DNA of 64,000 nt from Cephalotus follicularis (Eukaryota; Streptophyta; Magnoliopsida; Oxalidales; Cephalotaceae): contig BDDD01000363.1 of the NCBI GenBank assembly GCA_001972305.1, positions 636,500-700,499 of the forward strand. The letters are read 5' to 3'. The notes below the pieces were generated by a model. That model was given only the letters and a program-made list of their open reading frames with translations. It made no database searches and had not been told where the DNA came from. Position 1 is the first letter of the stretch; each line of letters opens with the position of its first letter. Below, piece by piece: positions 6,980-64,000 of this stretch. Made by a program: the position numbers and the translations under genes.

Positions 6980-7319
6980 GACTTTCTCTGTTTAACTGAG
7001 TTCTGAAATGTTTTTTTGTATGTTTATCTATTGTATATATTGTCATGAGAAATGCTGAAAAACACCAAGAAAAACACCTTAATTCGAGGGTTTTAACTTG
7101 AGATATATTACCAGGTGTTGCACTCTTCTTAAAGTATATGTATGTTGAGCTCATGCATGGAGTGAATAGGAGTATAGATGCACTACACTCAACTCAACTA
7201 AACGAAGCCTTGATCCTACATGAAATCTATTGCTTATATCAGCTTTATATTGCATTGGACCAACACTCGGTTATGCAATTTATTGACATTATGACTTCCT
7301 ATTATCAAATGATAATATT
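6980..7319. other. Short anonymous spacer
   Basis: AT-rich sequence between the EFR3-like relic and the CACTA end. No coding or repeat structure was recognised. Confidence 0.5.
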
Positions 7320-31970: not shown

Positions 31971-32163
31971 GTCCGTCTGCAATACGGGGTCCCATCACAA
32001 TCAATATCGGTCCTGCCGCAATTCGGGGTCCTATCGCCATCAATATCGGTATGTCCACAATGTGGGGTCCCATCGCTATCAATACCGGTCCGTCCGTAAT
32101 GCAGGGTCCCATCGCAATCAATATATGTCCGCCCGCAATGCGAGGTCCCATCACAATCAATAT
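31971..32163. repeat. Five-copy minisatellite of about 39 bp
   Basis: Consensus core GGGGTCCCATCGCAATCAAT preceded by GTCCGTCCGCAAT, repeated five times with point differences. It lies within the solo LTR; open frames over it are only the translated repeat. Confidence 0.85.
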
Positions 32164-33032
32164 CTATACCATATGATGTGGTATAATATTCATGACCTTT
32201 ACGACAGAAATGGAGATCATAAATGGGTTATCTCGTTAGGTCTCATACAATACAACCAATCAATTCATACGATAGTCGTACCCATGACCTTATAACCATT
32301 TAAATGATAGGGACATTTCATAAAGGATCACATAGGATCCATATTTGTCAAAACCATTTGAAAACCATTTCCATAACCATTTTCCATAAACCATTTTCCA
32401 TTTCCATAAACCATTTCCATAGCCATAGGCCATTTTTCATATCCATAAACCATTTCCATTTCTCTTGAATTGAGAGAAGGCTGAAGCTCAACTTCTCTCA
32501 ATTCTTTATTCAGTCCATTATACCCTTATACAGTTCATTAATCCATGTAATCAGTAATCATGCATAACTATAACAATCCATTTAGCACACAATCATCAAT
32601 GAACAACATATCAATTCATACCATCCGTTCGAAATGCATGAATGCAAGTAAAACAGTATAACCATACTCTAGTGATCTACCATTCGTATACTACCGTCCC
32701 ATACCGGCATATACGAATGGGATCAAGCCAATAGTCATATAGGCACGTACCATCAAAGCATATGTAAACCCTACCTGTTAACAATTGAGCTTGTGAATTG
32801 GGAGGACTTGCAGTAGAATCGACGAACTGTCACCTCCTCTAAGCTTTACTCACTATCACGAGCACAGCTCCTTCTTGTGCCAACAGAGTTCCCTTTCTCT
32901 TTTACCATCGCGTCGGGTGGAGGGTCTAGACTGCTCGACGTCTTCTCCTGGTTCGGCACCTTGCGTCGACGTCTTCTCCGGCGCGCCAGCTCCCTCTTTC
33001 TCTCTCTCGCACTCCCATCGCTCTTTCTTCAT

Positions 33033-42854: not shown

Positions 42855-43671
42855 ACTCTTATGCCTCTCCGACTCGAGATAGTACTCCCCACCATCTATA
42901 CACTCTCCGTGCCATAGTCGTGTGGGACATAGCATAACACCGGTCACATAAACCATACCATAACGCTAGTCCTTAATGGTCCTAGCCCATACCATAACGC
43001 TAGTCCTCAATGATCCTAGCCCATAATAGAGATTTGTGCGATCTATACCATATCCATGTCATGTCCATACCATACCATGTCACTCCACAATGCGGTGATG
43101 CTCGTAGGTCACCCAAAAATGGAGGAATCCATATCTATATAATATGTGGCCTACATCCATAATTCTTCATGACGGAAATAAAGATTATGAATGGGTTATA
43201 CCGTAAGGTCTCAGCCATAACAAATCATCAATCATAGCTGTACCATCCCCGTAGCCCATAACCATATTTCCATTTAAAGGATAGGGATCTAACCATAAAT
43301 GATCACATAGGATCCGTCCATCAAAACCATTTTAAAAACTATTTTCCATAATCATATTTCGATGACCATTTTTCATAACCATTTTCTTGGTCCCTATCGG
43401 AGTTTTTAAAACAATGGAGAGGAAGTCCAACTAGGATATCCGCGTCCAGATGTCCTAATTGAGCTATCCTAACCATTCTTAAAAACCATTTGTATAAAAC
43501 CCATTTTTGATAAAACTTCCTTTAAAGATTTACTTGAAAGTTAATTTGAAGATCAAAAGATGTTAAAAGAGGATTCACATAGGTTACAAGGCCTTAGAGA
43601 GGCTTCCTATGAAATCCATTTAAAGAGAAAATCATTTGGAATTGAAAACAATAAAGTTTGGCTGAAACAGG

Positions 43672-44010
43672 GGCGTCGTTAGGTGTCAACGCTTTCATGT
43701 TAGGCGTCGACGCTTAACGTCTAAGTGTCAACACTTTGAACTAGGCGTCGACGGATAAGGCATTATGCCTTAGAGTCAACGCATGCACTAAACGTCAACC
43801 GCTTATAACACATAAGGCATCGACACTTTAGCCGAAAACGTCGACGCTTATGTCCATTTTCCCTTATGGAGTTAACGTGTCGTGATAATTAGCATACAAA
43901 AAGCAAAGGGGCACATAGGGCGTCGACGCTTAACCGAAAGCGTCAACGCTCTGGGTACTGAAGAACACGTCGACGTGTAAGATGAACACGTCGACACCTT
44001 GGGCTGCTGT
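43672..44010. repeat. GTCGAC palindrome cluster in the chromovirus LTR
   Basis: About ten copies or variants of GCGTCGACGCTT, GCGTCAACGCT, GCATCGACACT and ACGTCGACGT in about 330 bp. The stretch at 43702-43724 is identical over 23 bp to 60296-60318 in the copia leader. Confidence 0.8.
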
Positions 44011-44727
44011 CAACACTATGAAAATCAATCAAAACTCACTTAAACCGTTCAAAATTCGATTCAAAAGGAGCTATAAGCTCCAAACATCAATTAAAACTCA
44101 AAAACAGTTTTTAAACCATTAAAATCCATTCCCATAACCCTTAGATTTGAGAGAAAATAGAAATTAGGTAAAAGTCTCAATTCTCTAATTTCTCTCAAAT
44201 CCCCATTTCAATCCATTATTAACCATACCCAACGTCCTAAATTCATCCATCTACCATATATCCATCAATCCATAGCCATGAAATATATTCAAATCCGTCA
44301 CAATAAGAAAATCAAGCATATGTAGAATCTACCTCAAATTTGGCTGAGAACGGAGAATATGTTGTTTAAATCTTCGTTCTGCTTCTCCCTTCAGGTTCTA
44401 CGCTCTACCACGATCCTAAAGACACCTTACTTGCTTGATTCCGCCCACTTTCTCTCTCTAACTCACACTCTCTCTATAATTGAACGGGAAATGAAAATAG
44501 AAAGAACTGAACTGCCTATATATAGAAATAGGCTCATTTAGGCAAAAATCTCATAAGCTACAATCAGGTTCTACTGAACCTTCACTACCAATAAACAGCC
44601 ATAGAAGTGAAAAATAGTATATATCATATGCAATCCATGTCATCCATCAATACAATATTGTACAATACCATATAAGTACAAACAATAATGCATACCATTC
44701 TGTACATATACAAATTTGGAGCTTACA

Positions 44728-44741
44728 ACCTCCCCTCTTTA
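44728..44741 (-). other. Polypurine tract of the chromovirus
   Basis: On the minus strand AAAGAGGGGAGGT directly precedes TGTAAGCTCC, the start of the 3' LTR. This is the usual plus-strand primer and fixes the LTR boundary. Confidence 0.8.
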
Positions 44742-44770
44742 GAGAAATATCGTCCCGAGATTCCCTGTGA

Positions 44771-47700
44771 TCAAAACAAATGAGGATACAAAGCTCTCAT
44801 GTCATCCTCACGCTCCCATGTTGCTTCCTTGAGCCCGTGATACTGCCATAAAACCTTAACCAAAGCAATTTTCTTATTCCTTAGCTGCTTGACTTGGCAG
44901 TCAAGAATCTGAACAGGCATGTCCTCAAAACTCATATCTGTCCTCAGATCTAACGGCTCATACGGCAATACATGTTAAGGGTTTGGCTGATACTTCCTCA
45001 GCATCGACACATGAAACACACTGTGCACCTCTGATAGGCTGGGAGGTAAGGCAAGTCTACAGGCGACTGCCACCTACCCTCTCAAGGATCTCAAAAGGTC
45101 CAATAAACCGTGGAGCTAACTCCCTTTCTTGCCGAATCTCATAATTCCTTTAGTCGGAGAGACTTTAAGGAAAACATGATCACCCAGTGAGAACTCTAGA
45201 TCTCGTTGACGATGATCAGCATAACTCTTCTGTCAACTCTGAGCCATTAGAAGCCTTTCCCTGATAACCCTGGCCTTTTCTATCGTTTCCTGCACAAGCT
45301 TTGGCCCTAGGAGACTCTGTTCGCCTACCTCAAACCAACAGACTGGAGTTCTACATTTTCGTCCATAAAGGGCTTCAAACGAATCCATACCGATACTAGC
45401 ATGAAAACTGTTATTATAAGAGAACTCCACTAAAGGCAGATGCTTATCCTAACTACCACCCCAATCCATCACACATGCTCGGAGCATATTCTTAAGAGTA
45501 TGAATTGTCCTTTCAGACTGACCATCTGTCTGGGGGTGAAAATCCATGCTGAAACTCAGCTGAGTACCGAAAGCTATCTGCAGTTTTTTCCAAAACCTAG
45601 AAGTGAACCGCGGGTCCCTGTCGGAAACAACGCTAATTGGAACTCCATGGAGTCTCACAATCTCCCCAACATACAGAGATGCTAACCGTTCCATAGAATA
45701 AGTCATCATGATCGCTAGAAAATGTGCAGATTTGGTAAAGCGATCAACAATAACCCATATGGCATCATGGTTAGCTCTCATTCGTGGCAACCCCGATACA
45801 AAATCCATCGTGATGTGCTCTCATTTCCATTGTACCACTGGCAACGGCTGAAGCAATCCAGCTGGCCTCTGGTGTTCTACCTTAACTTGCTGACATGTTA
45901 GGCAGGCAGAAACATACTCTGCGATCTCCCTCTTCATATTGTTCCACCAATAGGTAAGCTTCAGGTCTTGATACATCTTAGTGCTCTCTGGATGCACAGA
46001 GAAACTGGAGCAATGAGCCTGAGGCAACAACTCGTCCTTCAGTTCCTTACTGTCAGGAACACAAACTCTGCCCTGGAAACTGATCAAACCATCACCATGA
46101 ATCGAGAATTCGGGCTTCAATCCACCTTGACTATCCAACGCAGCCTTAAGCAAACCTCCATCCATCCCCTGAGCCTCTCTAATCCTATCCATCAACCATG
46201 GTCATGCCTGAATCTGGAAAACCGTCAAGCAAGCTAATCGGCGACTCAAAGCGTCTGCCACCACATTAGCCTTGCCTGGATGGTACTGTATCTCACAATT
46301 GTAATCATTGAGCAACTCCATCCATCTTCTCTGTCTCATATTCAGGTCCTTCTGGGAGAAAAGATGTTTTAAACTCTTGTGATCTATGAAAACATCAAAT
46401 TTCATGCCATACAAATAATGTATCCACTTGCGTTATACAAAGATTATCGTTGCTAGCTCCAGATCATGTGTGAGGTAATTCTCCTCATGAGGCTTCAATT
46501 TCCTTAAGGCATAAGCAATTACCTTTCCATACTGCATTAAGACACAGCCCAAACCATTCCCTGACGCATCACTATATACCACAAAGCCCTCATTACCCTT
46601 TGGCAAGGCCAAGATCGGCGCAGAAATCAGGCGGTGCTTCAACTCCTAAAAACGTTGCTCATAGCTATCATCCCAAACAAACGATGTATTCTTCTTTGTC
46701 AACCTAGTCAATGGTGTAGCAATCTGTGAGAATCCTTCGACAAAGCGACGGTAATAACCAGGTAAGCCTAAGAAACTACGAACTTCGGACACATTTGTTG
46801 GCCGTTTCCAGTTCTTTACTGCTTTTATCTTTATTGGATCCATTGACAAACCAGCACTGGAAATGACATGACCCAGAAAAGCCACATCGGACAACCAGAA
46901 TTCACATTTGCTGAACTTGGCATACAACCGATGATCTCTCAAAATCTTCAATGCCAAGTTCAAATGTTCCTTATGCTCCTCCATACTCCTGGAATACACT
47001 AAGATATCATCAATGAAGACCACAATGAATTGGTTGAGATACAGGCGGCAGGGGCATTAGTCACCCCAAACGGCATCACTACAAACTCATATTACTCATA
47101 CCTTGACCTGAAAGCTGTCTTTGGAATGTCTTCGGCTTTAACCCTGAGCTGATGATATCCTGATCTCAAATCCAACTTAAGGAACACTGAAGCGCCTTTC
47201 AACCAATCAAACAACTCGACAATATGCGGCAAATGGTACTTATTCTTAATTATAACCCTGTTGAGCTGCCGATAATCGATACACATCCAAAGGGATCCAT
47301 CCTTTTTCTCTACAAACAAAACAGGTGTTCCCCAAGGGGAAACACTCGGTCTGATAAAACATCTATCGAGCAACTCCTGCAACTTAACCTTCAATTCTTT
47401 CAACTCATGAGGGGCCATATGATAAGGAGCTCTCGATATCGATGCTTTCCTTGGAAGCAGATCAATCACCAACTCTTATCCCTCTCTGCAGGTAAGGATG
47501 TCAACTCATCTGGAAACACATCCGAATACTCAGAAACAACCAGAACATCCTCTAACCTCGGTATCCATTTCCTGTTATCCGTCATATGCACCAGGAAACC
47601 ACTGCAACCTTGTCTCATAAGTCTGTCAGCACGAAGAGCTGATACCATCTGAACCGACTGATGCTCTAAAGTCCCAATGAACTGGAACTGACTGGCATAC

Positions 47701-48100
47701 TGAAGGTCACGACCTTCCCATTACAATCCACATGGGCATAATGTGTTGATAACCAATCCATCCCAAGGTTCACATCTAGCTCACCTATCGGTAACACTAT
47801 AAGATCTGCTAGCAAAACACGGTCGATGATCTATAAAACACAAGACTTGCATACCCATTCTAAAATAACTGACTCTCCCATCAGGGTACTAACCTCCATC
47901 ACAAAAGGCAAAGGTTCGGGCTCCACATTAACATGGCATATAAAATGTGATGCAATGTATGAATGGGATGAGCCCGGATCTATAAGAGTCCATGCCATAT
48001 ACTGAGAGATACAAATAGTACCTCATATCACTGATGTAAATCCTCCTGCAACACTTTGATCCATACCATATACCCTACCCTGCACGGTAAGTGTCGACCC
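44771..48100 (-). mobile_element. Chromovirus pol region: protease, RT, RNase H, integrase, chromodomain
   Basis: In minus order: protease with LIDPGSSHSYIASHF near 47.98 kb; RT with [20 protein letters not shown] and [11 protein letters not shown] (47.47-46.65 kb); RNase H with [14 protein letters not shown] and VVADALSRR (46.64-46.20 kb); integrase with the CLTCQQVK zinc block, [17 protein letters not shown] and DGQSERT (46.2-45.2 kb); chromodomain with KVLWQYHGLKEATWEREDDM (44.97-44.77 kb). The C-terminal chromodomain and RT sequence are of the Tekay/Del type. Chromodomains of this group are thought to steer integration to heterochromatin. Confidence 0.88.
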
Positions 48101-48289
48101 CATAGGTTGTTTGCTGCGATCTCTCCCTGCCACAGAAGGAAAACTGGTGCTAGGACGACCCTGATACTACTGTCTAGAACCACTGCCCTGCTGAAAACCA
48201 ATACTATGGTTCTGCTGAGAACCTACCTGAGATAGGCCTGAACTCTGCCCTGGCTGACTCCCTGAACCATATCTATCATGAGGGCACTC

Positions 48290-49618
48290 CCTAGCTATGT
48301 GTCAGAAGCCCCACATACCATGCATTTACTAGCTCTCCACCAACAATCATTCGATGTGTGATTCGTACCTCCAAAGTGCATGTACAGATAAAAGGGAGCC
48401 TGACTTCCACCACTGGAAAGTCTAGAGCGACCTCCTTGCATCCTCTAGTTCCTCTGCTGAGAATCCTGCCCTCTGCGCCTCTGCCAGGAGCTATGACCTC
48501 TACCCTTCTGTTGCGACCCTCTGGACTGCCCTCTCTGGCCAAAAAAATCGGGCGGATTACCGACACTCAAAGGCGAGCCACCCTGACCTGGACTGCTGTT
48601 CTCGAATCATTGAGACTTGTTACTGCTCCCGAAACTCCTCCCTAACTACCATTCAGAATAAGCAGGTCTGTTACGATCAGTCTGAATCCGTAAATTATGC
48701 AACTCTTCAGATACAGCCTCAATATCTCTGACTGCTAGCCAACCCAAAGAAAGATCTCAGCCTGAGCGGTACCAGCCTCTGTCTGATATCTGGTCTAAGG
48801 CCACCAAGAAACCTCTTTTCCTTTCTTGCTTCTGTGCCAACCATATGCGGAGCAATCCTTGACAATTCAACAAATTTGGCATCATACTGGCCTATAGACA
48901 TGTTACCTTGGGTTAAGGCAAGAAATTCAGTCTCCCTCTTATCAACTTTAGCTTCTGGATAATACTGCTCATTAAACTCTATTCTGAACATGTCCCATGA
49001 ATTTGGTATCCCATTTTCGTCCCAAGAGGTAGCAACCATGTTCCACCAATGTTCTGCTTCACCCTGAAGCATATAAGTGGCGAAGACCACTTTCTCGGAG
49101 TCTGAACATCTCAAGACTCGGAAGATCTTCTCCATTTGCATCAGCCATCTCTCAATAGTAACAGCATCAGGGTCCCTTGTAAAAACCGGAGGATTCAACC
49201 TCAAAAACTTAACTAATGGATCCTCCCTGGGTATAGGTAGGTCAATTGATCTCCTGGATATTTTGGCACGCCTAGCGGGCCTTACAACCGGGGTCTGCTC
49301 TGGTGCCACTGCTGCATGCCTAACCGGCCTTGTAACTAGGGTTTGCTCATCTGTAGCTGCTTGCCGCTGCATAAATTTATTCATCCGGTTCATCATGTTA
49401 TACATCTTCCTCATAAAACCTCTGGGTTCCCTTTGGCCAGGAGCATCAAAATATGTTTCTTGGCTTACATTATGTTCCACTTGTTCTTCCACATCTCTAC
49501 TGGCTCGGGTACGTCTAGTCGACGGCCCTGCATGAGCTTTTCCTGCAGCTCCCCTCCTTTGACCTTCCATATCTACATTGTATAAGAGATAAAAGTCAAT
49601 TATCCACTTCATAATCAT
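48290..49618 (-). mobile_element. Chromovirus gag region
   Basis: The gag domain shows LRLNPPVFTRDPDAVTIERW, KVVFATYMLQGEAEHWWNMV and EFNEQYYPEAKVDKRETEFL, typical of Tekay-type gag, followed by a Gly/Arg/Ser-rich tail with a weak zinc-knuckle region. The N-terminal part is Arg/Gln-rich. Confidence 0.8.
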
Positions 49619-49740
49619 AATTCAAAAACAGATACAGCAACCAGCAACTTATCAATATCACCCAATTCCAATAATAATCTTATCCATATCACTTAATTCC
49701 AATAGCCAAGGACCCTATCCTAGTATAGCCAACATAGCGT

Positions 49741-49753
49741 GGCTCTCATACCA
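49741..49753 (-). other. Primer-binding site of the chromovirus
   Basis: On the minus strand TGGTATGAGAGCC lies seven bases after the LTR end, close to the initiator tRNA-Met site. It marks the internal edge of the 5' LTR. Confidence 0.7.
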
Positions 49754-49760
49754 CCTAAAC

Positions 49761-50564
49761 TGTCACGCCCCGAACCCTAAGGAAAACCCCAAGGCTCGAC
49801 ACGTGGTAGGTTCTTCCATACGATCCATTATACATATACCATCATACTCCAAAATACGCTATAAATTTAAAACTTTAAAATACCATATGCGTGCGGAAGA
49901 TAAACATTCAAAGACAAGCCCAACCATATCCATAACATATGATACATACATCTTAGGCATTGCCACAAACCGGCAGGTCAAAAGCTGAAATTACAAATGT
50001 CTCTTATACATCCAAATTCATATATAAAAGGTAGATAACAAAAAATAAACTGCTACAAGAAAACTTGTGTTGCGATTCGCTCCTTCTGATCACTTCGGAG
50101 CTTCACCTATACCTGACCCATTACCAGAATGGATCAGCAATCAATGGTTGTGTAGGCTACACTATATGCTATGCATGCAACAGATATAACATATATATAT
50201 GCATGACATGTTATATGCATGAATGGCAAATACGGACAGCTTCAGTATATCAATCGTCCCTAAGCGGTGGTATACTTGGCTAGTCCTAAACAATTCAAAG
50301 ATCATAGGCCTACAGACACTCCATAAAACAATCCATAACCATCCATGGAGACAATCAATCCATAGGGTCAAGTACTCATATGCCTCTCTGACCTGAGATA
50401 ATACTTCCCACCGTCTATACACTCTCCGTGCCATAGCCGTGTGGGGCATAGGATAACACCGACCACATAAACCATACCATAACACTAGTCCTCAATGGTT
50501 CTAGCCCAACCATAACGCTAGTTCTCAATGGTCCTAGCCCATAACAGAGATCTGTGCAATCTAT
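49761..50564 (-). repeat. 5' LTR of the chromovirus, visible part
   Basis: Starts TGTCACGCCCCGAAC and follows the 3' LTR closely until the copia insertion. The continuation expected from the 3' LTR (TACCATATCCATG) is not found beyond the copia element in this window. Confidence 0.85.
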
Positions 50565-51299
50565 TTTTGGGAATGGTAATTCATTCCCAGAGCCGAAATC
50601 GGACCAAAGGTTGTTGTAGGTGCAAACAAAACTTTTTAATTTAAATATGGCAGCGGAAAACAACCCTTAACACCACTACTAACAAGTCCAATTTCAGCAA
50701 CATCACAAGTCACAAGGAACACCACCTCATAACATACTTGAATTGGCATCACACTAACATGCAAATGTGATGCACTAACATGGCGACATAGAGAGGGACA
50801 TGGAGATCATAACACACGGTGATGGCTCCTTCGTCTTTGTCTGTTCAAGCTTGAGTAGACTCCCCTCAAGCTTTGTGTTCCTCCAAACAACCGGTTCCAA
50901 AACGCCAGCAACCAAGCACAAAGGAAAAACAGCACCTGTTTTGTTCTAACAATGTCACACTCAACTTTCTCTCACAATGCTCACAAAGGATGCATTGAAC
51001 TTGACAAAGATTGTCAATAACAATCAACCCTATGTTAGCTCCAAGCTTGGTGAATTTATCCAAGAAGGGATTACACTTCTGTTGGACGCTTACAAACAAT
51101 GTTTCATGCTCTGTTTTTGTATGTCAACCAGCTGCGCACTCACGTTGCACGCACCAGTACCTCACTACGTCGCCTCTTCTAAGGCAATCACTTCCCACGA
51201 TACCAACGTGCTCCCCACATATTTCTGATAAGATAAAATCGCTAGGAGTGGGAGAGAGTTCGCGCGCACATCGCGTAACCATGTAGGGCACCCATGTTA

Positions 51300-51430
51300 A
51301 CGCACTAAGTGTCGACGCTTTTCCAAAAGCGATGACGCTTAGATGGGCTAAACGTTGACGACTTTCCAAAAGGGCATCGACGCTTAGATAGGGCTAAGGG
51401 TTGACGCTTTTCCAAAAAGTGTCGATGCTT
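51300..51430. repeat. GTCGAC-type motif cluster in the copia 3' LTR
   Basis: Five to six variants (GTGTCGACGCTTTT, GCATCGACGCTTAG, GTTGACGCTTTT, GTGTCGATGCTTAG) each followed by CCAAAA or AGATAGG, in about 130 bp. The paired copy is at 61640-61765. Confidence 0.75.
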
Positions 51431-53129
51431 AGATAGGCTGGTCAAAATTTTGAGTCTAACTCTTACTTAAATGAGTCCAACTCATTTTAGTGATGCCACA
51501 TATTCCTTCGAATATTGATTAAATAATATCAAACAAATGTGTCACTACAAATTGTAAAATTCACCTAACCAATATTTGATTTTATAATTATCACCAAGAC
51601 TTAATATGTCCAACATATTTATGAAGAAATCATTATCGAGCAAGAACCCTTTAAAACTTGGTTAATATAGATGGTGATCATAAATTTTTGAAATGCCCCT
51701 AGGGTTCAGTTAAACCATTCTAAATACTCTCATACCTATTTAAATGCTTCCGGACTAATATCTAAAATTATCCAGATGAAAAATTAATCTAATTAATTTT
51801 CTCACAATTTATTACACACCACTTAACACGAGACTTTTTAAGTCGTCAGTTCGAGTGTACTATAATCCCTTATCATACTTGACCCCGATTGAGGTCTAGG
51901 GTAAGGATATGTGTCAACCCTGGATAATACCTCAATGGCTAAAATATCTGATTATTACTATAACCTTTGGTAAACTCTCCAAAAATCTAATTTCGAGTCT
52001 ACCTCAACCTTGGCCAAGGATTTCATAAGTCCAAAGTACAATCAGACCATAATAGGGCTGATCACCTTCGCTCAGGTGTGACAATATTATATTGCGCCCT
52101 CGCTTATATTCGTATAGATTCGATCATACCCAAAGACCACCTGTTTGCCAGCCTTGCGCAAAAACTGGGTAAGGTGGAGATCAAATGTCACACCCCGTTT
52201 TTAATTAACACATGGTTAATCCAATTAATCCAGTATTTACCAATTAATTAAAATTCTTAACTTTGCGGAAGCATTTATAATACTGGATTATTCAAATAGT
52301 ATACACATGTAACTCATACTACAAGCTTAAACTTATTACAATATCGAAGTTATATATTACATATTGAAAATGAAAATATAACACGGGTATGACTTATTTC
52401 AAATTACAACCTTAATTAAAAACATTCAAGTAAAGCTTCAGCAGCACGTCTCCAAATCCTTTGTCAATCTGAAATTGTAGGTATCGGCCTTTTGTCTACT
52501 CGGCTAAGTAGGAAATATGCAAGAAAATGAATATATAAATGTAATCATGCAAGATAGTTTATATTTCAAAAATAACACCATACACTCTAATGATGATAGA
52601 AAAGGTAAATAGTATTGCTGGCATTTAGCGGTCAATTAACAGTCAAGATCAGCGTTACAGATACGTTTGGTGTATAAGCTCTAGCCAACTTCTGGCACAT
52701 AGGCCCACCTCTGTAGTCAGTGATACACTCCGATCACTAGACTATCAGACTATCAATCACAAACAATTCAGTTATTACATATATAATGTAATATAAACAG
52801 TAGTCTCATTTGTAGAGAAAACAGTAACAGTAAGTTCTCATTTGAGAAAACAGTACAGTAGTAGGTAAAATATTCAGTTCTTGAAATCCTTGAAACAGTA
52901 GTAATTATAGAAATTACTTGGTATATATAAAATATCTATACAGTAAGCAATATGAACAGTACAATCAATATCAATTTTAAGAATCAAACAGTAGTATGCA
53001 TAAGTCGCTCAACTCATCTAATCTGACTATGCATAGAAAGAATTGATTATTAGAATCATCCACTATGGAAACCAATGCAATCACATGAGAATTGAACATA
53101 AACAGGACAAAATATTGACTGCTCAGTCT

Positions 53130-53292
53130 TAAGCGTCGACAGTTCCTCTCAAAGCGTCGACAGTTCCTTTTAGAGTGTCGACAGTTTATATTAAGCGTCG
53201 TCGGTTCCCTCACTTAGGTGTCAACAATTTCTACTCAAAGCGTTGACAATTCTCCTTAAGCGTCACCAATTTTCTCTTAAGCGTCGACGGTT
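53130..53292. repeat. GTCGAC motif cluster A in the 2.2-kb solo LTR
   Basis: Seven to eight units such as AAGCGTCGACAGTTCC, GTGTCGACAGTTT, GCGTCGTCGGTTCC and GCGTTGACAATT, spaced about 20-25 bp. The right half differs from the copia version (AGTT or GGTT in place of GCTT). Confidence 0.8.
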
Positions 53293-54024
53293 TCTAGTGT
53301 TCTTGCGATTTACAGTAAACAGAGCATGCAATTTCACATTTCAATTCAGTCTAACATCAACATACAGTTATATATATCCCATCTTAACACAATATATATG
53401 CTATATCTTCATAAACATGTCATAAATCTTACCTCAGTAGCTATCCCATAATCAATTTGGATTGATTCTTCTCTTTACACTCCAATACTCCTTCAACTCA
53501 ACTCAACCTTCAATAATTCCCAAAATTCAATCTAGGTTGCGTTTAACATCCGATACAAAACGAAAATCAGTATATATAAATAACGGATTGACTATAATAA
53601 CAACTGAATTCAAAATCAGAAGCTTACCAATTCAATTTAAGCTTCTATCTCAACTTTGAACACCATTATAGCATGCACACAGTATAGCAGATGGATTCTC
53701 TCATTCACAGACGATTTCTAACTCTTAGCTCAACTCATAACCTTAGCTGATATAGGAATTTCATTTCAGTGATTTAGTTAACCTGCTAACTCAAACTCTC
53801 AACATTTTTTCTTCTCTCTCATGCCATCATCTCACTGTTTTGTTTTCTCTTTTCTGTTTTTTGCAACTTACAGGTGACTCGTGCAGCTTAATTCTCCTTC
53901 AATTAGCAGTTGGTACTTGATTTTTCAATACTTGACACGTTCCCTGAACACCTGTCCAAGAAAACACCAGCCATGCTATTGTTCTGTTTTAATCAACATG
54001 TATCTGATACCTGTTTGGGCTCAA

Positions 54025-54160
54025 AGCGTCGATGGTTTTATCCTTGGCATCGATGGTTACACGCTCGTTCAAAGCGTCGCTCTGTTCCAATCGACGCGTA
54101 TCAAATACCTGTCTGGGCTCAAAGCGTCGACGGTATTCTCTTTGGCGTCGATGGTTATGC
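54025..54160. repeat. GTCGAC motif cluster B in the 2.2-kb solo LTR
   Basis: Six units, including CAAAGCGTCGATGGTTTT, GGCATCGATGGTTA, CAAAGCGTCGCTCTG, CAAAGCGTCGACGGTA and GGCGTCGATGGTTA. Two approximate 110-bp duplicates (CTGGGCTCAAAGCGTCGA) occur at about 54013 and 54112. Confidence 0.8.
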
Positions 54161-54967
54161 GCCAGATTTTTGTTCCTTTAAGTTTCTTTCAATTAACTTC
54201 CCATTTAAGTCAATTACATCCTTCATTCATCTTAATGTTGTTCAATTAAGCCTTCAACTTATCCCATTAACAACTATTAGCTTAATCAATGGACAATTAA
54301 GCATTAATTTCAATGCAATGTATCATTTATTCATCGTTTATACAATATACATTAAATTTGAAATTGTGGTTATTACATCAAAGCATAACCGTCTCCATAC
54401 AATATAGAGCAATCGCTCAGGTCTAAGGATTAAACGAGTTTGAGAACTCGCTAAGTGACTAGCACTTATACACAACCGCAACATGTAGGAATCACTACTG
54501 ACACGAGAATAGTGATATTATCCAAATAGTGTCTCCTACGAGGATCCTGTTCAGTATACACGCTCCCAGTGCGTACCCCGTATTTGCCCTAGTGTCGCAA
54601 CACAGATGGAAGTGAGAGAATCCATCCTCCAATTCCAAAAGCAGGCAACATACGCACAAGTCTATCCGATTCACCAATGCCCACAAAGCGAACCTATGAC
54701 TTGGAACTAATTCGACATAAGGAATAAGGCAACCAATCTCACTACCTCCATACTTGGCATCCAACCTTATGACAGGCATCATGAGTCTAAGTAGGGTAAT
54801 ATTAAACTACTTCAATTATGTGATAAAACACAAGTGATATTATCATAAATAATATAAACAAATTAGCACGTGTCATATATCAGAAAAAAGACTGTTTATA
54901 TATATATATACAGATAGATTAGATACAAAAGCCCATCTAATGGCTTGTCGGGTCTCCCTATCTAACA

Positions 54968-54980
54968 ATCTCCCACTTAA
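54968..54980 (-). other. Polypurine tract of the copia element
   Basis: On the minus strand TTAAGTGGGAGAT directly precedes TGTTAGATAGGG, the LTR start; AAGTGGGAGATTGTTAG is a familiar copia junction. Confidence 0.8.
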
Positions 54981-55078
54981 CCCTCAAGCCATGAACTCCT
55001 ATAGCCGAGACCCATCGTCCCATGATGATGCTCCAAAGCCTTGGTGCCCATTGCCTTGGCCAATGGATCTGCAATGTT

Positions 55079-58000
55079 CTACTCTGAGGAGACCCTCTCA
55101 AGATGAATATCTCCCCTACCAATAATCTCTCTGATCAAATGGTAGCGTCTCTCGATGTGTTTGGATCGCTGGTGAGACCTTGGTTCCTTGGCTTGTGCTA
55201 CAGCCCTATTGTTGTCACAGTATATAACAACCGGACTGCTAATGGTAGGAACAACTCCAAGTTCTGTGATGAAATTACGCATCCATACACCCTCCTTGGC
55301 GGCATCTAAGGCTACCATGTACTCGGCTTCTGTTGTGGAATCTGTTATAGTCCCTTGCTTCGAACTGTGCCAGCTCACAGCTCCTCTATTAAGTACAAAA
55401 ACATACCCAGAGATAGATTTGTGATCATCAGGATCACTATCAAAATTGGAGTCTGTATAGCCCTCCAATTTTAACTCACTATCCTTTCCATATATCAAGA
55501 AGATATCTTGAGTCCTCCTAAGGTACTTCAAGATCCCCTTGACCCCTTCCCAGTGCTTCTCACCGGGATCAGACTGAAAACGGCTTACCATTCCCAAGGC
55601 ATGCGCGACATCAAGCCTAGTACATAATATGGCATACATGATCGACCCTACCGCCGAAGCATAAGGTATCCGACTCATGCGTGCTCTCTCTTCAGATGTC
55701 TGTGGAGACATCTTTCGAGAAAGATGAATTCCTTCACCTATAGGCAATAGGCCTCTCTTGGAATTCTCCATGCTAAACCTTTTTCAGCACCTTACTGATG
55801 TACTGGCTTTGGAAAAGCCCAAGCAACATGTTGGATCTATCCCTGTAGACCCTAATACCTACTATATAGGTGGCTTCTCCCAAATCTTCCATGGAAAAGT
55901 TCTTAGCTAGCCATATTTTTGTAGACTGCAACATCCATTCATCATTCCCAATGAGTAGGATGTCATCTACATATAGCACTAAGAAAGTGATATTAGGTCC
56001 CTCTTGCTTTCAATAAACACATAGCTCATTCACATTTTTAATGAAGTCAAAAGCTTTGACTACTTCATCAAAACGTAGATTCCAGCTACGTGATGCTTGC
56101 TTTAGTCCATAAATGGACCGTTTGAGCTTGCACACCATGTGCGGATGCTCGGTAGATTTAAACCCCTCGGGTTGAGACATATAAATATCATCTTCAAGAT
56201 GCCCATTCAAAAATGACGTCTTGAAATCCATTTGTCATATCCCATAATCATAATGAGCGGCAATCGCAAGCAAAATCCGAATGAATTTGAGCATGGCGAC
56301 TGGTGAGAATGTCTCAGTATAGTTGACACTATGTCGCTGGCTATACTCTTTCACCATTAATCGAGCTTTATATGTTTCTATTTTTCCATATGCGTTCATC
56401 TTCTTTTTGAAGATCCATTTACAGCCAATAGGCACTATGCCTTCGGGTGCTTCAACCAAATTTTAAACCTGGCTGGAGTACATGGAATCCATTTCAGATT
56501 TCATGGCTTCTAGCCATGCCTCAGATTCAGTGCTCTGCACTACCTCCTGATAGCTGGTAGGCTCGTTGTCTTCAACGATGTTGACCTCATCAGTACCATC
56601 AATGAGGAAACCATAGCTCTCAGGTGCTAATGGGATCCGGCCTGATCTCCTCAAAAGAGCTTTGCCTGATTGAGATCCATTCTCAGCTTGAGATCCAATC
56701 TCAATTGTGTCTGTTGAAGGTCCAACCCCCAACTCCTCCATTTCCTGTGTGTTGTCTACCTGTGGAAACTTCTTGAGTTCCACCTGACTCCCACTGTTTC
56801 ATTCAAGAAGGTATTCCTTCTCTAGGAACACAGCATTTTGCGAAACAAATATCCTTTGTTCACTAGGATGGTAGAAATAATATCATTTCGTTTCTTTAGG
56901 ATACCCCACAAACCTGCAACGGTTCAACGGCGCTTCCAGCTTATCTGCGTCAAGCCTCTTGACATAAGTTGGGCAGCCCCAAACCTTTAAATAGCTCAGG
57001 CTGGGTTTCCTCCCTGATCATACCTAGTATGGAGTGGAGGGTACAGATTTTGAAGGAATCTGATTCAAGATATAGGCAATTATTTCTAGGGCATATCCCC
57101 AGAGATAGGTGGGAAGGTCAGTAAAAGACATCACAGATCGAACCATGTCCAACAAGGCCCGATTCCTCCTTTCGGACACACCACTATGTTATGGTGTTCC
57201 AGGAGGTGTCCACTGAGATAGAATTCTATTATCTCTAAGATAACCTAGGAATTCAGTTGACAGGTATTCGCCACCTCTCTGACTGAAGTATTTTAATTGA
57301 CTTACCAGCCTGTTTTTCTACTTCATGTCTGAACTCCTTAAATTTCTCAAAGGATTCTGACTTGTGTCTCATCAAAAACACATAACCAAACCTAGATAAA
57401 TCATCGGTAAAGGTTATGAAGTAGACATAACCTTCTCGCGCACTGACCGATATAGGACCACATATATCGGTATGGACTAACCCCAGTAAGTCCATTGCCC
57501 TTTCTCCTTCCCCGGAGAAAGGAGATTTGGTCATCTTTCCCAATAAACAGGATTCACACGTTGGATAGGACTCCAAGTCCTAGATATCTAGAAGATCATC
57601 CGTAACCAACTTTAAAAGTCTAGCATCACTAAGATGATCAAGTCTACAATGCCAAGTATAGGTTTTATTTAACTCAGTTTCTCTTGGTCTTTTCGTATTA
57701 CTTTGCTCTATGGACAGGGTTTTAGATTGTAGAGTATTTAAGACAAATAATCCATTATCAATAAAACCATTACCGATGCAAACATTGTCAAAAAATACAA
57801 AACATTGAATATCTTGGAATTTGAGCTCCAAGCCCAAATTGCATAAGTATGAAACACTTATAATATTTCTTACAACGTTTGAAACATAATAACAAGGATT
57901 AAGTGTCAATACATAACCATTACTTAAAATAACATCATAAATCCCTACAACTTCAGCGATGATACTAGATCCATCCCCAAGCCCTAAGTCCAAGTCTTCA

Positions 58001-58200
58001 GCTTCAAGCTTTCTAACCTTTCTTAGTCCCTGCAATGAATTACAAAGGTTAGTTCCACATCCAGTATCCAATACCCATGAAGAACTACTATTCAAAGCAA
58101 GATTTAGTTCAATCATGAACATACCTGATGTACAAGCACCATACACAGTATCAGAAGAGACTCCAGCACCAGTAACCCGACAATCCTTCTTCTAGTGTCC
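55079..58200 (-). mobile_element. Copia pol region: protease, integrase, RT, RNase H
   Basis: In minus order: protease WVLDTGCGTNLC and pre-integrase HCRLDHLSDARLLKL (58.15-57.58 kb); integrase core VHTDICGPISVSAREGYVYF (from 57.58 kb); RT with VAMLKFIRILLAIAAHYDYG, KRSIYGLKQASRSWNLRFDE and LYVDDILLIGN (56.46-55.77 kb); RNase H with YASAVGSIMYAILCTRLDVA, STTEAEYMVALDAAKEGVWM and RSKHIERRYHLIRE (55.77-55.08 kb). The integrase-before-RT order defines Ty1/copia; RT and RNase H sequence favour the Angela/Tork group. Confidence 0.88.
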
Positions 58201-59008
58201 AGTCTTACCACACTGAAAACAGACACCCTCGGCCACCAACTGCTTCATACGATTCTTGGAAATATCCCCACCAGCTCTAAGATTTCCCTTCTTCTTCTTT
58301 TGCTTCTTCTTACCCTTGCCTTTTGTATTGACAGGCCCGAGCATGCCCTTCCCTTTGGAGGAAGACAAGGCACTGCCCCTTTCCTTGGGTAGAAGTGGGT
58401 CTTTGACTTCCCAGAGTTAAAATCGGCATCAGCCGTCCTCAACATAGCAATCAACTCAGAAAGAGTTACTTCTATCTTGTTCATATGAAAATTCACTAAA
58501 AACTGTGAGAATGACTTAGGAAGGGACGTAAGGATGAGATCCACATAAAGATCGTGGTCCATGACAAACCCTAATTGAACGAGGTGCTCAATCATGTCTA
58601 TCATCTTCAATCCATGATCATGGACTGAAGCTCCCTCTTGCATCTATGCCTTGAAGAGTTTGCGAGAGATTAAACCTTTGAGTCCTAAAATCAGCCCCAT
58701 ACATCTCCTGAAGATGGATCAGTATAGCGGATAAGGTCTTCATCTTCTCATTATGATGCTGAAGCTCTGGTGTCATCCCAAGAAGGGCAAGACATCAAGC
58801 TTGCTCGTCATCCTTTAACCATTTGGCCAAACGCTCACTCTCTTCGGGCGTAGGATCTTCACCCAGTGAAGGAGGCCCCCCCAGTCATCACATACGCCAA
58901 TTTATTGGCTGTTAGGACGATCTTGAGGTTTCGTTGCCAATTGTTGAAATTAGGGCCCTCAAGTTTGTTTGTCTCTAATATACGGGACATACCAGATTGT
59001 AAAGCCAT
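58201..59008 (-). mobile_element. Copia gag region
   Basis: Begins at an ATG ending at 59008 (MALQSGMSRILETNKLEGPN), with the copia gag block NFNNWQRNLKIVLTANKLAY, then MIEHLVQLGFVMDHDLYVDL and LPKSFSQFLVNFHMNK. A basic linker leads to a single zinc knuckle just before protease (CFQCGKTGH-type in minus sense near 58.2 kb). It forms the capsid of the element. Confidence 0.8.
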
Positions 59009-60884
59009 ATTCTCGCAATCTAGATAAGGAAACATAAAGATGAGTTAACATTTATTCCAATTTTAATATATGACAACCATAACACTTGGTATTTAGTTCT
59101 TGGTTCCTCCCACTATTCTAATTGTATTCCATACCGTCATATGGAACTCGAGAAGTCCAACTGCCTAGTAGGGATTGGAATCCATCGCGGTCATATTATG
59201 ACATTAGTTAGGGCATAAAAAACCATAATATATCCAATTGGTAGGTTATCTTGCCAATTTGTATCCAATACAAGATCCAATCATAAAATTCAGCATCTAA
59301 TTCAATATGGACTTAACTAGGGCATAACAAACCATTAGAATCAAGATAAGTCAAACACCCACAATCTTCATTGGAATGCACTAGTTTTAACACCCACCCG
59401 TAGGCGTGTCCAAGTCCTAAAATATAGCCACCCTTTACGGTGCCCAACACTGACGTTGACAGAGCATACCATAGGTTACCAGCCTCAGCTAGGGCATGAC
59501 AAACTAATAACCCAGGTACACCACTCAACGAAAATTATGGAAGACCACGGGGAACCACTCCATGGGTTCTTACATTCAAACTTATTATTTAGTTGAGGGA
59601 ATTTGCGGTCTCTAATTCTAATTACCAAGCCTTTAATTAATTCATTGGTTTCATTACCCAATCCAATTAATTACGGCTTTGCATGCATGACGTGTATTTG
59701 GACTATTCATCTTATGCACTTTGGATTTATTTCTAAAATAAATCAATAGAATGGCAAGGGCATCACTATAAGTAATGACTTGAGCCCAAAGTCACTACTT
59801 GGTCTTCCTAGGTGCTATGATTAAATCTATCTATTACATTCGGAACCATGCATTCATGGCCTTCATTGGTCTTGTACTTCTATTCTCCTCTCCTCCATCT
59901 CTCATTCCAAGGTTTTCTTTTACAAAAGAAACTTTATATTTTAAAAGAAAATTACATAAGAGGAAAAATAAATAGTGCACGCAAGCACCTTATGACAAAC
60001 CATTAATAAATCATAGATTAAATCATCCACAAAAGAAAACCAAAGCTAGGTCTTGTCCTTATAGGCCATCCATTGTTCATAAGAGCATTAAAGCATATCT
60101 AATATAACTTCAAAACAATACACAAATACCTCTCATAATAACCAATTACGAAATTTAATGTCAGAGGTTGTTTATAGGTCAAACTCCCACTAAATCAAGC
60201 AATGATTATTATCATCTAAGTGCCTTAATGCAAAAATTCCAAATTTTTACAAATAGTGCAATTTTTTTATAGTCTGAGCGTCGACGCTATGAATAAGGCG
60301 TCGACGCTTAACGTCTAACATCCTAAGCGCAATAGTATTCGTCAACACTCAACATCTATGTCAACGCTTAGGCAAGTGTTGACGCTTTACCCAAAAGTGT
60401 CAACACTTTAACCAATTGCGTCAACGCTTTAATCAAAACATGGATGCACAGTGCCTAAGCGTCGACAGTTTATAACAAACCGTCAACGCTTAACACAGCC
60501 ATCAGTGCTAAAATACAAGTCATCTAGATAAGCGTCGACGCTTTAACCAAAAGTGTTGACGCTTAAACCTGCTGTCAAATGACACCATGCCATAAGCAGC
60601 AGCTTTTCCAGGGATTGGACTTAGGCAATCCAATTATCTGTACTATGCAAACATTAGATAACCTTCAAATACACTATGCAGGTTCCAAACATAAGTCCAA
60701 AACATATTGTAATACAATCCCCAGGACAATACCACAAAATGAAATCCAATTTCATTCAAAAACTTGCAAACACCAAGAATAAACTTACGCACTTAGAAGA
60801 TAAGTTCATCCATACAAACACATTTGCTAATTAAACTTTTAATCAGTCATTGTCCTGGGCATCAAAATTCAACTATGAACGATG
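59009..60884 (-). mobile_element. Copia leader between primer site and gag
   Basis: About 1.9 kb with no coding sequence, unusually long for a copia leader. It includes a GTCGAC cluster at 60275-60575. No separate insertion with terminal repeats and target duplication was found. Confidence 0.6.
60275..60575. repeat. GTCGAC palindrome cluster in the copia leader
   Basis: About ten units in 300 bp: GCGTCGACGCTAT, GGCGTCGACGCTTAACGT, GTCAACGCTTAGG, GTGTTGACGCTTTA, GTGTCAACACTTTA, GCGTCAACGCTTTA, GCGTCGACAGTTTA, GCGTCGACGCTTTA, GTGTTGACGCTTAA. Most differences are C-to-T or G-to-A at CpG positions. Confidence 0.82.
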
Positions 60885-60902
60885 TGGTTGGCTCTGATGC
60901 CA
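60885..60902 (-). other. Primer-binding site of the copia element
   Basis: On the minus strand TGGCATCAGAGCCAACCA begins one base after the LTR end (CATTCCCAACA). It resembles the initiator tRNA-Met site TGGTATCAGAGC. Confidence 0.78.
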
Positions 60903-61639
60903 CTGTTGGGAATGGTAATTCATTCCCGGAGCCAGAATCGGACCAAAGGGTATTATAGGTGCAAACAAAACTTTTTAATTTAAACATAACAGCGAAAAAC
61001 AACCCTTAACACTACTACTAACAAGTCTAATTTTAGCAACATCACAAGTCACAAGGAACACCACATCATAACATACTTGAATTGGTATCACACTAACATA
61101 CAAATGTGATGCACTAACATGCCGACATAGAGAGGGACATGGAGATCATACCACACGGTGATGGCACCTTCGTCTTTGTCGGTTTAAGCTTGAGTAGACT
61201 CCCCTCAAGCTTTGTGTTCCTTCAAACAACTGGTTCCAAAACGCCAGCAACCGAGCACAAAGGAAAAACAACCCTTGTTTTGTTCTAACAATGTCACACT
61301 CAACTTTCTCTCACAATGCTCACAAAGGATGCATTGAACTTGACAAAGATTGTCAATAACAATCCACCCTATGTTAACTCCAAGCTTGGTGAATTTATCA
61401 GAGAAGGGATTACACTTCCCTTGGACGCTTATAAAAGAATGTTTCATGCTCTGTTTTTCTATGCCAACTAGTTGCGCACTCACGTTGAATGCACCAGCAC
61501 CTCACCACATCGCCTCTTCGAAAGGAATCACTTTCCACGATGCCGACGTGCTACCCACAGATTTCTAATAAGAGAAAATCGATGGGGGTGGGAGAGAGTT
61601 CGTGCGTTTTCCGCGTGCCCACGTAGGGTACCCACGTTA

Positions 61640-61765
61640 ACGCACTAAGCGTCGACGTTTTTCCAAAAGCGCTGACACTTAGACGGGCTAAACGTTGATG
61701 CCTTTCCAAAAGGGCATCGACGCTTTGATAGGGATAAGCGTTGACGATTTTCCAAAAAGCGTCGA
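61640..61765. repeat. GTCGAC-type motif cluster in the copia 5' LTR
   Basis: Equivalent of 51300-51430, with GCGTCGACGTTTTT, GCGCTGACACTTAG, GTTGATGCC, GCATCGACGCTTTG and GCGTCGATGCTTAG. Some CpG positions kept here are changed in the other LTR and the reverse. Confidence 0.75.
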
Positions 61766-61959
61766 TGCTTAGATAGGCTGGTCAAAATTTTGAGTCTAAC
61801 TCTTACTTAAATGAGCCCAACTCACTTTAGTGATGCCACATATCCTTTCGAATATTGATTAAATAAGATCAAATAAATGTGTCACCACAAATTGTAAAAT
61901 CCACCGAACCAATATTTGATTTTATAATTATCAGCAAGACTTAATATATCCAACATATT

Positions 61960-62696
61960 TGTTGACATTTATGTCTCAATCCTAGTTTTGATGATAACAT
62001 ATTTGTGTTTAACAAAGTTTCTTTATGTGCAAGTAAAAGATATAATATGCAAAACAACAAGAAAATTGTTGACAAAGCTTAAAGCGTCGACGCTTTAAAA
62101 GTAAGCGTCAGCGCTTAAGGAACCGTCGAGAGCTAGGCGCAAAGCGCCAACAGTTGAAGCATTGGAGCAAAGGAGAAAATGGCCAAACCGTCGACGCTCT
62201 GAGAAAAGCGTCAGCACTTTGAGGCTAAGCGCCAGCGCTTAGGAGGCCCATATTAGCGGTTAAAACCAGAGAATTTTGGGCTAATGAAAATTGCCCAAAG
62301 CGGCGACGCTCAACACAAAGCATCAGCACTTTGAGGAAACTGTCGACCCCAAATCTAGAACGCCAGCGCTTTGACCAGAAAGTTCAAATTCAAATACCCA
62401 ACGGTCATATAAGCGGCGACGCTTTGAAGCAAATTGTCGACGCTTTGCACAGTTGAAAAAATTTCTGACAGAGTTTTAATGCGCCGTTTTTGAAGCAACA
62501 AACTCCAAGACACATTCAACGGATTTTTCAAGTGAAAAACGGCTATAAACAAAAAGATTTGAAGAAAAGAATACAACAAGAATACAAGAGAACATACATA
62601 CAAAGATCAATCAAGAAAAACAATAACAAGCATTCAACATCATCAAGTCTCTTTCAAAAGTTCTTGTTTTGTGCCTTAGCCTATTATTGTTATTCA
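61960..62696 (+). mobile_element. Solo LTR, 737 bp, probably copia (SIRE-like)
   Basis: Starts TGTTGACATTTATGTCTC and ends GTTATTCA, with a perfect ATATT duplication (61955-61959, 62697-62701). The empty site is visible in the other copia LTR at about 51621. The beginning CTCAATCC-AGTTTTGATGATAAC resembles SIRE-type copia LTRs. About half of it is a GTCGAC cluster. No coding region. Confidence 0.82.
62085..62460. repeat. GTCGAC/GTCAGCGC motif cluster in the 737-bp solo LTR
   Basis: About twelve units: AAGCGTCGACGCTTTA, AAGCGTCAGCGCTTAAG, ACCGTCGACGCTCTG, AAGCGCCAGCGCTTAGG, AAGCGGCGACGCTCAA, AAGCGGCGACGCTTTG and others. The half-site variety is wider than in the other clusters. Confidence 0.8.
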
Positions 62697-63846
62697 ATAT
62701 TTATGAAGAAATCATTATCCGGTAAAGACCCAGTTAAAATCTCAGTTAATATAAGTGGTGGTCGTAAATTACCGAAATGTCATAGCGTTCGGTTAAGCCA
62801 ATCTAAATAATCCCAAACCTATTTAAATGCTTTCGGACTAATATCCAATATTATCCAGATGAAAAATTAATCTAATTAATTTTCTCACAATTTATTACAC
62901 ACCACTGTAACAAGAGACTTTTTAAGCCGTCGGTTCGCATGTACTATAATGCCTTGTCATACTTGGCCCCGATTGAGGTCTAGGGTAAGGATACTTGTCA
63001 ATCCTGGATAATACCTCAATGGCTAAAATATCTGATTATTACTAGGACCTTTGGTAAACTTTTCAAAAATCTAATTTCTAGTCTACCTCAACCTTGGCCA
63101 AGGATTTTATAAGTCCAAAGTACAATCAGACCATAATATGGCCGATCACCTTCGCTCAGGTGTGACAATCCCATATTGCGCACTCGCTTATATTCATATA
63201 GATTCAATCATACCCAAAGACCACTCGATTGCAAGCCCTACGCAAGAACTGGGTAAGGTGGAGATCAAAGCATAACTGTCTCCATAAAATATAGAGCAGT
63301 CGCTCAGGTCTAAGGATTAGACGAGTTTGAGAACTCGCTAAGTGACTAGCACTTATACACAACCGTAACAGGTAGGAATCACTACTGCCACGAGAATAGC
63401 GACTATCCAAATAGTGTCTCCTACGCGAGTCCTGTTCAGTGTACACGTTCTCAGCGCGCACCCCGTATTTGCCCTAGTGTCGCAACACAAATGGTAGTGA
63501 GAGAATCCATCCTCCAATTCCAAAAGCAGGCAACATATGCACAAGTCTATCCAGTTCACTAATGCCCACAAAGTGAATCTATGACTTGGAACTAGTTCAA
63601 CATAAGGAATAAAGTAACCAATCTCACTGCCTCCATGCTCTACATCCAACCTTATGTCAGGGCATCACGAGTGTAAGTAGGGTAATATTAAACTACTTCA
63701 ATTATGTGATAAAACACAAGTGATATTGCCATAAATAATATAAACAAATTAGCACATGTCATATATCTTGAAAAAGACTGTTTATATACATTGATAGGTT
63801 CGATACAGAAACCTAACAAATGGCTTGCGGGTCACCCTATCTAACA

Positions 63847-64000
63847 AAACCAAATTAGGGCTATTGTCCAAACATTGGCGCTTAACCTTGTCTACTCGGC
63901 GATCGTGTTCTACCGCCATAATAGAATTGACGCAGTTAACTTTCGGTAAAGTCAACCTGAGTTTTTCCATTTGTATTATTTTCAACTGTGTACATTGTGT
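63847..64000. other. Unassigned flank right of the copia element
   Basis: The last 154 bases are not the expected continuation of the chromovirus LTR and were not recognised. They could be host DNA or yet another element. Confidence 0.5.

Follow-up and report, generated by a model that had tools for sequence, protein, structure and literature searches.

The window analysed here is a stretch of 64,000 nucleotides of the Cephalotus follicularis genome (assembly GCA_001972305.1, contig BDDD01000363.1, positions 636,500 to 700,499 of the forward strand) whose long terminal repeat (LTR) retrotransposons carry clusters of the short CpG-rich palindrome GCGTCGACGC. These clusters are the local part of a genome-wide set of helically spaced arrays of TCGA-centred palindromes, written in three variants that we call dialects (GCG, CAG and GAC), one of which stays apart from the others. 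The exact palindrome is found six times in the window and is absent from 100 shuffles; within two mismatches there are 44 sites against 4.35 expected and a maximum of 10 in any shuffle. With a cluster defined by at least three sites separated by gaps of at most 120 bp, all seven clusters reported in a preliminary description of this DNA are recovered at their places; the 21-bp spacing of the sites, the genome-wide scale and the two further dialects are additions to it. The window arrays belong to the GCG dialect throughout, and no exact match of the CAG or GAC dialects is found in the window. In the elements examined the arrays lie in LTRs and in a leader wherever they could be placed, namely in a chromovirus LTR, in the LTR pair and the leader of a copia element, in a gypsy-type solo LTR (LTR-A) and in a copia-type solo LTR (LTR-B).

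The first array (43683–43997; 10 sites within two mismatches, spacings 21, 41, 28, 44, 21, 82, 20, 27 and 21) is found in the 3′ LTR of a minus-strand chromovirus (Ty3/gypsy) element (42855–44727, both ends approximate and the start set by eye), 0.5–0.8 kb downstream of a TATA-like box (CTATATATAG, a pattern match at ~44525, minus strand). A remnant of the 5′ LTR (50374–50564, minus strand) matches 42855–43046 at 89%, and Pfam matches identify separate open reading frame (ORF) pieces of gag, reverse transcriptase (RT) and integrase on the minus strand. Both LTR remnants also hold a 33–34-bp tandem repeat (42953–43025 and 50476–50541), distinct from the palindrome array. The copia element, also on the minus strand, is recognized by Pfam matches of separate ORF pieces of gag (58248–58643), integrase and RVT_2. 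Its 3′ LTR (50567–54968) is interrupted by solo LTR-A and its 5′ LTR (60904–63847, TATA-like box at ~63789) by solo LTR-B. The array of the former (51309–51428) lies inside a stretch homologous to the other LTR, and that of the latter (61649–61768) lies ~1.3–1.4 kb downstream of the TATA-like box when the solo-LTR insert is not counted. A third array (60278–60562; eight sites within two mismatches) occupies the leader, between a sequence resembling a primer-binding site (PBS; TGGCATCAGAGCC, ~60902, minus strand) and gag. Solo LTR-A is of gypsy type, 2192 bp long (52186–54377) and bracketed by a perfect 5-bp target-site duplication (TSD) TCAAA; its assignment to the minus strand follows from a relative in another locus (L015) that sits downstream of an integrase piece. 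It has two arrays, the first with asymmetric sites such as AAGCGTCGACAGTT and AAGCGTCGACGGTT (53133–53290) and the second inside a tandem duplication with a 98-bp period (54026–54154). Solo LTR-B is a plus-strand copia-type LTR of 737 bp (61960–62696) with a perfect 5-bp TSD ATATT, whose array (62084–62443; six sites within two mismatches) precedes a TATAAA sequence read by eye at ~62544 (plus strand).

The element contexts given in the preliminary description are thus as described, with two qualifications: a single copia element contributes the clusters at 51.3 and 61.7 kb, one in each of its LTR copies, so that they are not independent, and a single solo LTR holds the arrays at both 53.1 and 54.0 kb. 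That the contexts otherwise share no sequence was also borne out: when the motif sites are masked, the best mutual similarity among the six context pieces of the window is only E = 0.16. A single element nested in all host LTRs, which would have refuted the preliminary description, is not seen at this level, and a short cassette common to the window contexts can be discarded on the same result.

Exact matches were counted in 1.577 Gb of genome sequence, with each motif read backward as the control. The GCG dialect (GCGTCGACGC) occurs at 73,186 places (121 for the control), the CAG dialect (CAGTCGACTG) at 197,377 (939) and the GAC dialect (GACRTCGAYGTC) at 115,446 (635), a sum of ~386,000 exact places. 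The control of GCGTCGACGC has two CpGs where the motif has three, so that genomic CpG loss would favour the control. An excess over control sequence is seen, on counts that cover the genome as a whole and are not restricted to annotated LTRs. GTCGAC sites with other flanks, chiefly CAGTCGACTG, are seen in a sample composed of the window and loci L005–L024. A scan of all 6-mers for a spacing of 20–22 bp placed parts of these motifs at ranks 1–6. GAGAGA followed, and the lower ranks held simple repeats and weak words; the same scan led to the third form, AAAGACRTCGAYGTCTTT. The commonest half-sites in the sample are AAGCG-TC (35 sites), CAG-TC (51 sites) and AAAGACA-TC (55 sites; its last A is present at 54%, and the genome places listed show A or G there). 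The dialects share one centre, TCGA, from which the palindromes extend to 10–18 bp, and 46 of 114 GTCGAC sites are symmetric where 20.4 are expected.

The density of arrays was estimated from 25 loci (231,742 readable bases, three of the loci being readable in part) picked regardless of content; these “random” loci were set beforehand from contig numbers and a fixed position, without use of a random generator. They hold 41 arrays, ~1 per 5.7 kb, and an array is present in 18 of them. Extrapolation from the 25 loci suggests a few hundred thousand arrays in the genome.

Same-dialect neighbours separated by a gap of 0–30 bp are found at 4,236 places for GCG–GCG (control 7), at 48,687 for CAG–CAG (control 166) and, for GAC–GAC, at 7,808 in forward and 8,063 in reverse orientation (controls 30 and 33). 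Spacers were analysed in the 50 GCG and 69 CAG pairs among the places listed, which are the first of the genome (contigs C1–C10 for GCG, C1 for CAG). The start-to-start distance is 19–22 bp for 37 of the 46 distinct GCG spacers and for 47 of the 58 distinct CAG spacers, the remaining 11 of the latter being at 27–28 bp. The spacers fall into 32 (GCG) and 30 (CAG) groups, which means that the spacing is conserved while the intervening DNA varies. This diversity is also the reason for rejecting a tandem-repeat artefact, although local duplications do exist, and it speaks, together with the lack of similarity between the masked contexts, against the earlier proposal that short cassettes move between unrelated LTR families. 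Site distances in the sample follow the helical repeat, with R reaching 0.48 for a period of 10.25 bp and falling to 0.40 for 10.5 bp and 0.02 for 11 bp (n = 170 pairs, which are not independent). Helical phase and conserved spacing are, we infer, the marks of proteins aligned on one face of the DNA.

Two explanations that do without such proteins bear on these data. Slippage acting on a chance CpG-rich word, with neutral growth as in a satellite, would account for the local tandem duplications (periods of 45, 98 and 112 bp), but it has no place for the palindromic symmetry of the sites, for a spacing that is kept while the spacers differ, or for three dialects with one centre, and we give it hardly any credence. 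The units could also function at the RNA level, where leader or LTR transcripts would form short UCGA-looped stems that serve packaging, splicing or stability. Each palindrome could fold in this way (judged by eye, not computed), the array of the copia leader and those downstream of TATA-like boxes would fall in the 5′ part of the transcript, and the LTR-B array, although it precedes its TATA-like box, might be included at the 3′ end of an element's RNA. A helical spacing near 10.25 bp is nevertheless without reason in RNA, and asymmetric sites such as AAGCGTCGACAGTT keep one half of the palindrome and weaken the stem, which makes an RNA function quite improbable. A protein-binding site, one of the two origins entertained in the preliminary description (as a host-factor site gained convergently), fits the palindromes, the helical spacing, the varied spacers and the asymmetric variants that keep one good half; the factor may come from the host or be encoded by an element.

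The dialects do not combine freely. GCG–CAG neighbours at a gap of 0–30 bp are found at four places genome-wide, where free mixing would give some tens of thousands (estimated as twice the root of the product of the same-dialect pair counts). CAG–GAC neighbours occur at 12 places, all with one spacer type by eye, and GCG–GAC neighbours at 1,546 places, most of the 100 listed having one spacer type by eye. When the 41 arrays of the random loci are typed by their sites within one mismatch, 16 prove to be CAG, 13 GCG, 7 GAC, 4 GCG with GAC and 1 unassigned, so that CAG is combined with another dialect in none of the 41. This distribution suggests at least two specificities that would not be interchangeable, CAG on one side and the partly mixing GCG and GAC on the other.

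Differences in dialect are also found between related LTRs. Gypsy LTR family A comprises GCG members (the window solo LTR-A and its relatives in L012 and L015) and CAG members (in L020, L021 and L011). In BLAST comparisons between the two kinds both flanks of the first array align and the array itself does not; for L021 against L012 the identity is 80% across 669 bp of one flank and 74% across 180 bp of the second. When the six LTRs are aligned with MAFFT, two arrays are seen in each, and within a member both arrays are of the same dialect. Sites of different dialects stand in register at 21 bp in this alignment, although the aligner may favour the shared TCGA core. Outside the arrays there are four further CAG-like words at two mismatches, three of them at column 577 (L012, L015 and L021) and the fourth at column 926 (L021); a site of L012 is equidistant from both dialects. 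The LTR-B family behaves similarly, the window copy and that of L008 being GCG-like and that of L021 GAC, with only the first 70–80 bp of the latter alignable. A family graph was set aside for counting families: of the 48 clusters (from the window, L001, L003 and the 25 random loci) 34 fell into one component, 22 links being between dialects, and part of the joining comes, in our reading, from nested elements in the flanks.

The alignment of family A raises the question of whether arrays spread as recombining modules, with LTR parts swapped between sub-families, so that sharing would result from exchange and not from selection on each site. In columns 300–599 L021 (CAG) is 90–92% identical to L012 and L015 (both GCG), while in the array blocks it is only 41–53% identical to them and, throughout the alignment, 56–90% identical to L020 (also CAG). 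The low identity is, however, not confined to the array blocks (at columns 1000 and 1700, for example, L021 and L012 agree at 42%), and in columns 300–599 L021 is only 38, 61 and 80% identical to the window copy, so that a faster regional evolution would explain the pattern as well. Moreover, the window contexts have no similarity outside the motifs, and the spacers are of many groups. Modular exchange as the general cause of the sharing is therefore unlikely in our estimate, while exchange of larger LTR parts between related sub-families is possible. The pattern of family A fits a concerted change of sites, such an exchange of LTR parts, or simply fast regional evolution. One stretch (L021: 3818–4459, L012: 1–652) stands out in this respect as 90–92% alike across dialects, the rest being far less so; an exchange of LTR parts is possible there.

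Array position was compared with that of TATA-like boxes, which are sequence matches and not mapped transcription starts. The LTR-B array is upstream of the box in all three copies (L008, box at 4021; L021, 5115; window, by eye as given above). Since arrays lie upstream in LTR-B and 0.5–1.4 kb downstream in the chromovirus and copia LTRs, they would flank the likely transcription start on either side, as enhancers or targets of anti-silencing proteins can.

We propose, with a probability of roughly two in three, that the arrays are docking sites of dimeric sequence-specific DNA-binding proteins that serve the transcription of LTR retrotransposons or their escape from silencing. One palindrome would be bound by one protein dimer, and the two-turn spacing would bring neighbouring dimers to one face of the helix, so that cooperative binding would be possible. 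There would be a specificity for CAG and at least one for the other two dialects. In the elements examined, of Ty1/copia and Ty3/gypsy type, the arrays lie upstream or downstream of a TATA-like box and in a leader, and related LTRs differ in the dialect of all their arrays; the benefit to the element would lie in expression or in anti-silencing, whichever genome part, host or element, encodes the binder.

A narrower form of this proposal deserves serious consideration, though we hold it to be well short of an even chance: host transcription factors, paralogs that recognize related TCGA-centred sites, may use the arrays as ordinary enhancer boxes, which many LTR families would each have acquired on their own for expression in the relevant tissue. 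The GCG dialect is common to Ty1/copia and Ty3/gypsy elements of the window, the arrays are placed around TATA-like boxes, and GTCGAC (as well as ATCGAC) fits the half-site RYCGAC of CBF/DREB factors as known for cereal CBF. The near-total absence of CAG beside GCG or GAC would, on the other hand, be unusual for freely available host factors, and so would the difference in dialect in both arrays of related LTRs.

Several results weigh against the docking-site proposal. An array is lacking in 7 of the 25 random loci. Placement in an LTR or leader is shown for the window elements and the relatives of LTR-A and LTR-B, not for each of the 41 random-locus arrays; for CAG arrays the one family assigned is gypsy LTR family A, with the remaining CAG carriers unclassified. 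Some arrays were enlarged in part by tandem duplication, and GCG and GAC do mix. When sites with two mismatches are counted, one CAG-like word, in each case two mismatches away from the motif, stands among the GCG sites in 5 of the 48 clusters; of such words 63.8 are expected by chance in 296 kb. The position of the array relative to the TATA-like box differs between families, with no single promoter geometry common to all. Finally, decay was followed in two sets of 10 relatives, one for the copia array and one for the chromovirus array, each set taken from 40 matches listed. The sites of these relatives within two mismatches are all GCG (one copia relative has no site and one has a single site). 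CpG retention inside and outside the arrays is 0.77 and 0.62 in the copia set (12 rows) and 0.66 and 0.63 in the chromovirus set (11 rows), and the lost array CpGs mostly read TG, CA or TA (28 of 33 and 95 of 104, respectively). Inserted copies thus show little sign of protection from methylation. Decay in these copies is for the most part CpG loss and resembles that of the DNA around the arrays, and any selection would need to operate on source elements.

An array CpG loss near the surrounding rate would also fit methylated, silenced copies, as expected if the host used the arrays against the elements, either as sites of a sequence-specific repressor or as entry points of methylation. Elements would then be expected to lose their sites, yet hundreds of thousands of exact and regularly spaced copies are present, and we regard such a host defence as improbable. 

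If the docking sites serve the elements, their binder could itself be element-encoded. One version of this idea is a trans-acting anti-silencing or activating system with rival “languages”, exploited by unrelated copia and gypsy elements through matching arrays, the dialect of which would switch as the protein changes; we put it forward tentatively and consider it rather unlikely as a whole. Its candidate binder is the ORF1 product with the PF20167 domain. The minus strand of L021 (10000–7000) carries the 5′ part of a gypsy-type element in which GCG sites are followed by a PBS-like sequence (TGGCGCCGTTTCCGAGG, ~8598) and then by a leader array (8220–8000) with sites of GAC and GCG type. The ORF directly after this leader array matches the start of PF20167 (Transposase_32) with E = 1.1e-6, below the family cut-off, and would be a candidate array-binding protein. 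Such a PBS and an extra ORF before gag are features of Athila/Tat/Ogre elements. The passages of PMC9289625 do not settle this point. The genome is rich in PF20167: of 13,073 first-look candidates 150 were scored, every one of them above the family cut-off, and many have open frames of ~400 codons. When the coordinates listed were compared by eye for a link between PF20167 type and dialect, no close pair emerged.

A Pfam scan of 57 distinct ORF pieces (20 of the window and 37 of the 46 listed elsewhere) did not identify a binder. Thirteen of the 57 have nothing at E ≤ 0.001; the remainder are mostly retrotransposon domains, the rest being CACTA-type, PF04195, PF20167 (one piece) or host-type domains. 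CACTA-type transposon pieces (Transpos_assoc, DUF4218 and DUF4216) lie in L026 at 5300–9068. Away from the arrays, the window contains a host-type multicopper oxidase coding stretch amid DNA rich in transposable elements (TEs) (11927–13042), an open frame of 956 codons for a gypsy-type RT–RNase H–integrase (17139–20009) and about five copies of a 39-bp unit with 79% matches (31967–32164).

The means by which plant LTR retrotransposons of large genomes escape silencing are still to be explained; for VANDAL elements, anti-silencing of a sequence-specific kind has been shown. A shared, helically spaced and dialect-specific code in copia and gypsy elements provides exact short probes with which the responsible protein could be found directly by pull-down. 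It would also reveal whether one regulatory system is shared, or stolen, by TEs of different superfamilies, and for what reason related elements switch their language.

LTR-borne repeated transcription-factor sites near the promoter are familiar from plant copia elements, as the repeated U3 boxes of Tnt1 and Tto1 and the heat-shock elements of ONSEN. Those boxes are features of single families, whereas here the motifs and their spacing are common to both superfamilies and the dialects are nearly exclusive. The resemblance to the CBF/DREB half-site is limited to the fit of the two hexamers; the sites found here are palindromes of 10–18 bp with CAG apart from the others, and binding by such factors would be conjectural. 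Among the open-licence PMC papers listed, none reports such arrays in LTR retrotransposons, and none of those listed for the exact motif words deals with TEs by its title, in agreement with the earlier statement that no LTR motif of this kind has been described, and the only relative met there is the VANDAL/VANC system of Arabidopsis.

In that system VANC, encoded by the element, binds short motifs repeated in non-coding parts of the TE, and related proteins recognize different motifs, YAGTATTAY in one case and AGTTGTCC and AGTTGTAC in another (PMC5735166). Motifs of VANC6 are also present in AT9TSD1, a TE not related to VANDAL (PMC5735166), and tandem repetition alters the arrays, which are not the same in related TEs (PMC5735166; PMC10398659). 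The strings “palindrom”, “spacing”, “copia” and “gypsy” are all absent from the main text of the 2017 article (PMC5735166). The likeness lies in motif arrays in non-coding TE parts, present here in the window LTRs and leader and in the relatives of LTR-A and LTR-B, and in motifs that differ between related TEs (three CAG and three GCG members in LTR family A; GCG and GAC in LTR-B). The motifs of the present arrays are, in contrast, TCGA-centred palindromes with helical spacing and not YAGTATTAY or AGTTGTCC/AC, their carriers have Ty1/copia or Ty3/gypsy domains and are not VANDAL transposons, and PF20167 ORF1 is a candidate binder where VANDALs encode VANC. Binding in that system also clears DNA methylation from the element; in the present arrays CpG decay resembles that of the surroundings. 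VANDAL/VANC is thus the nearest described system, alike in anatomy, from which the arrays stand apart by their carriers, their motifs and the want of a known encoded protein. Should the binder prove to be element-encoded, the arrays would be part of a retrotransposon counterpart of VANDAL/VANC with users across superfamilies.

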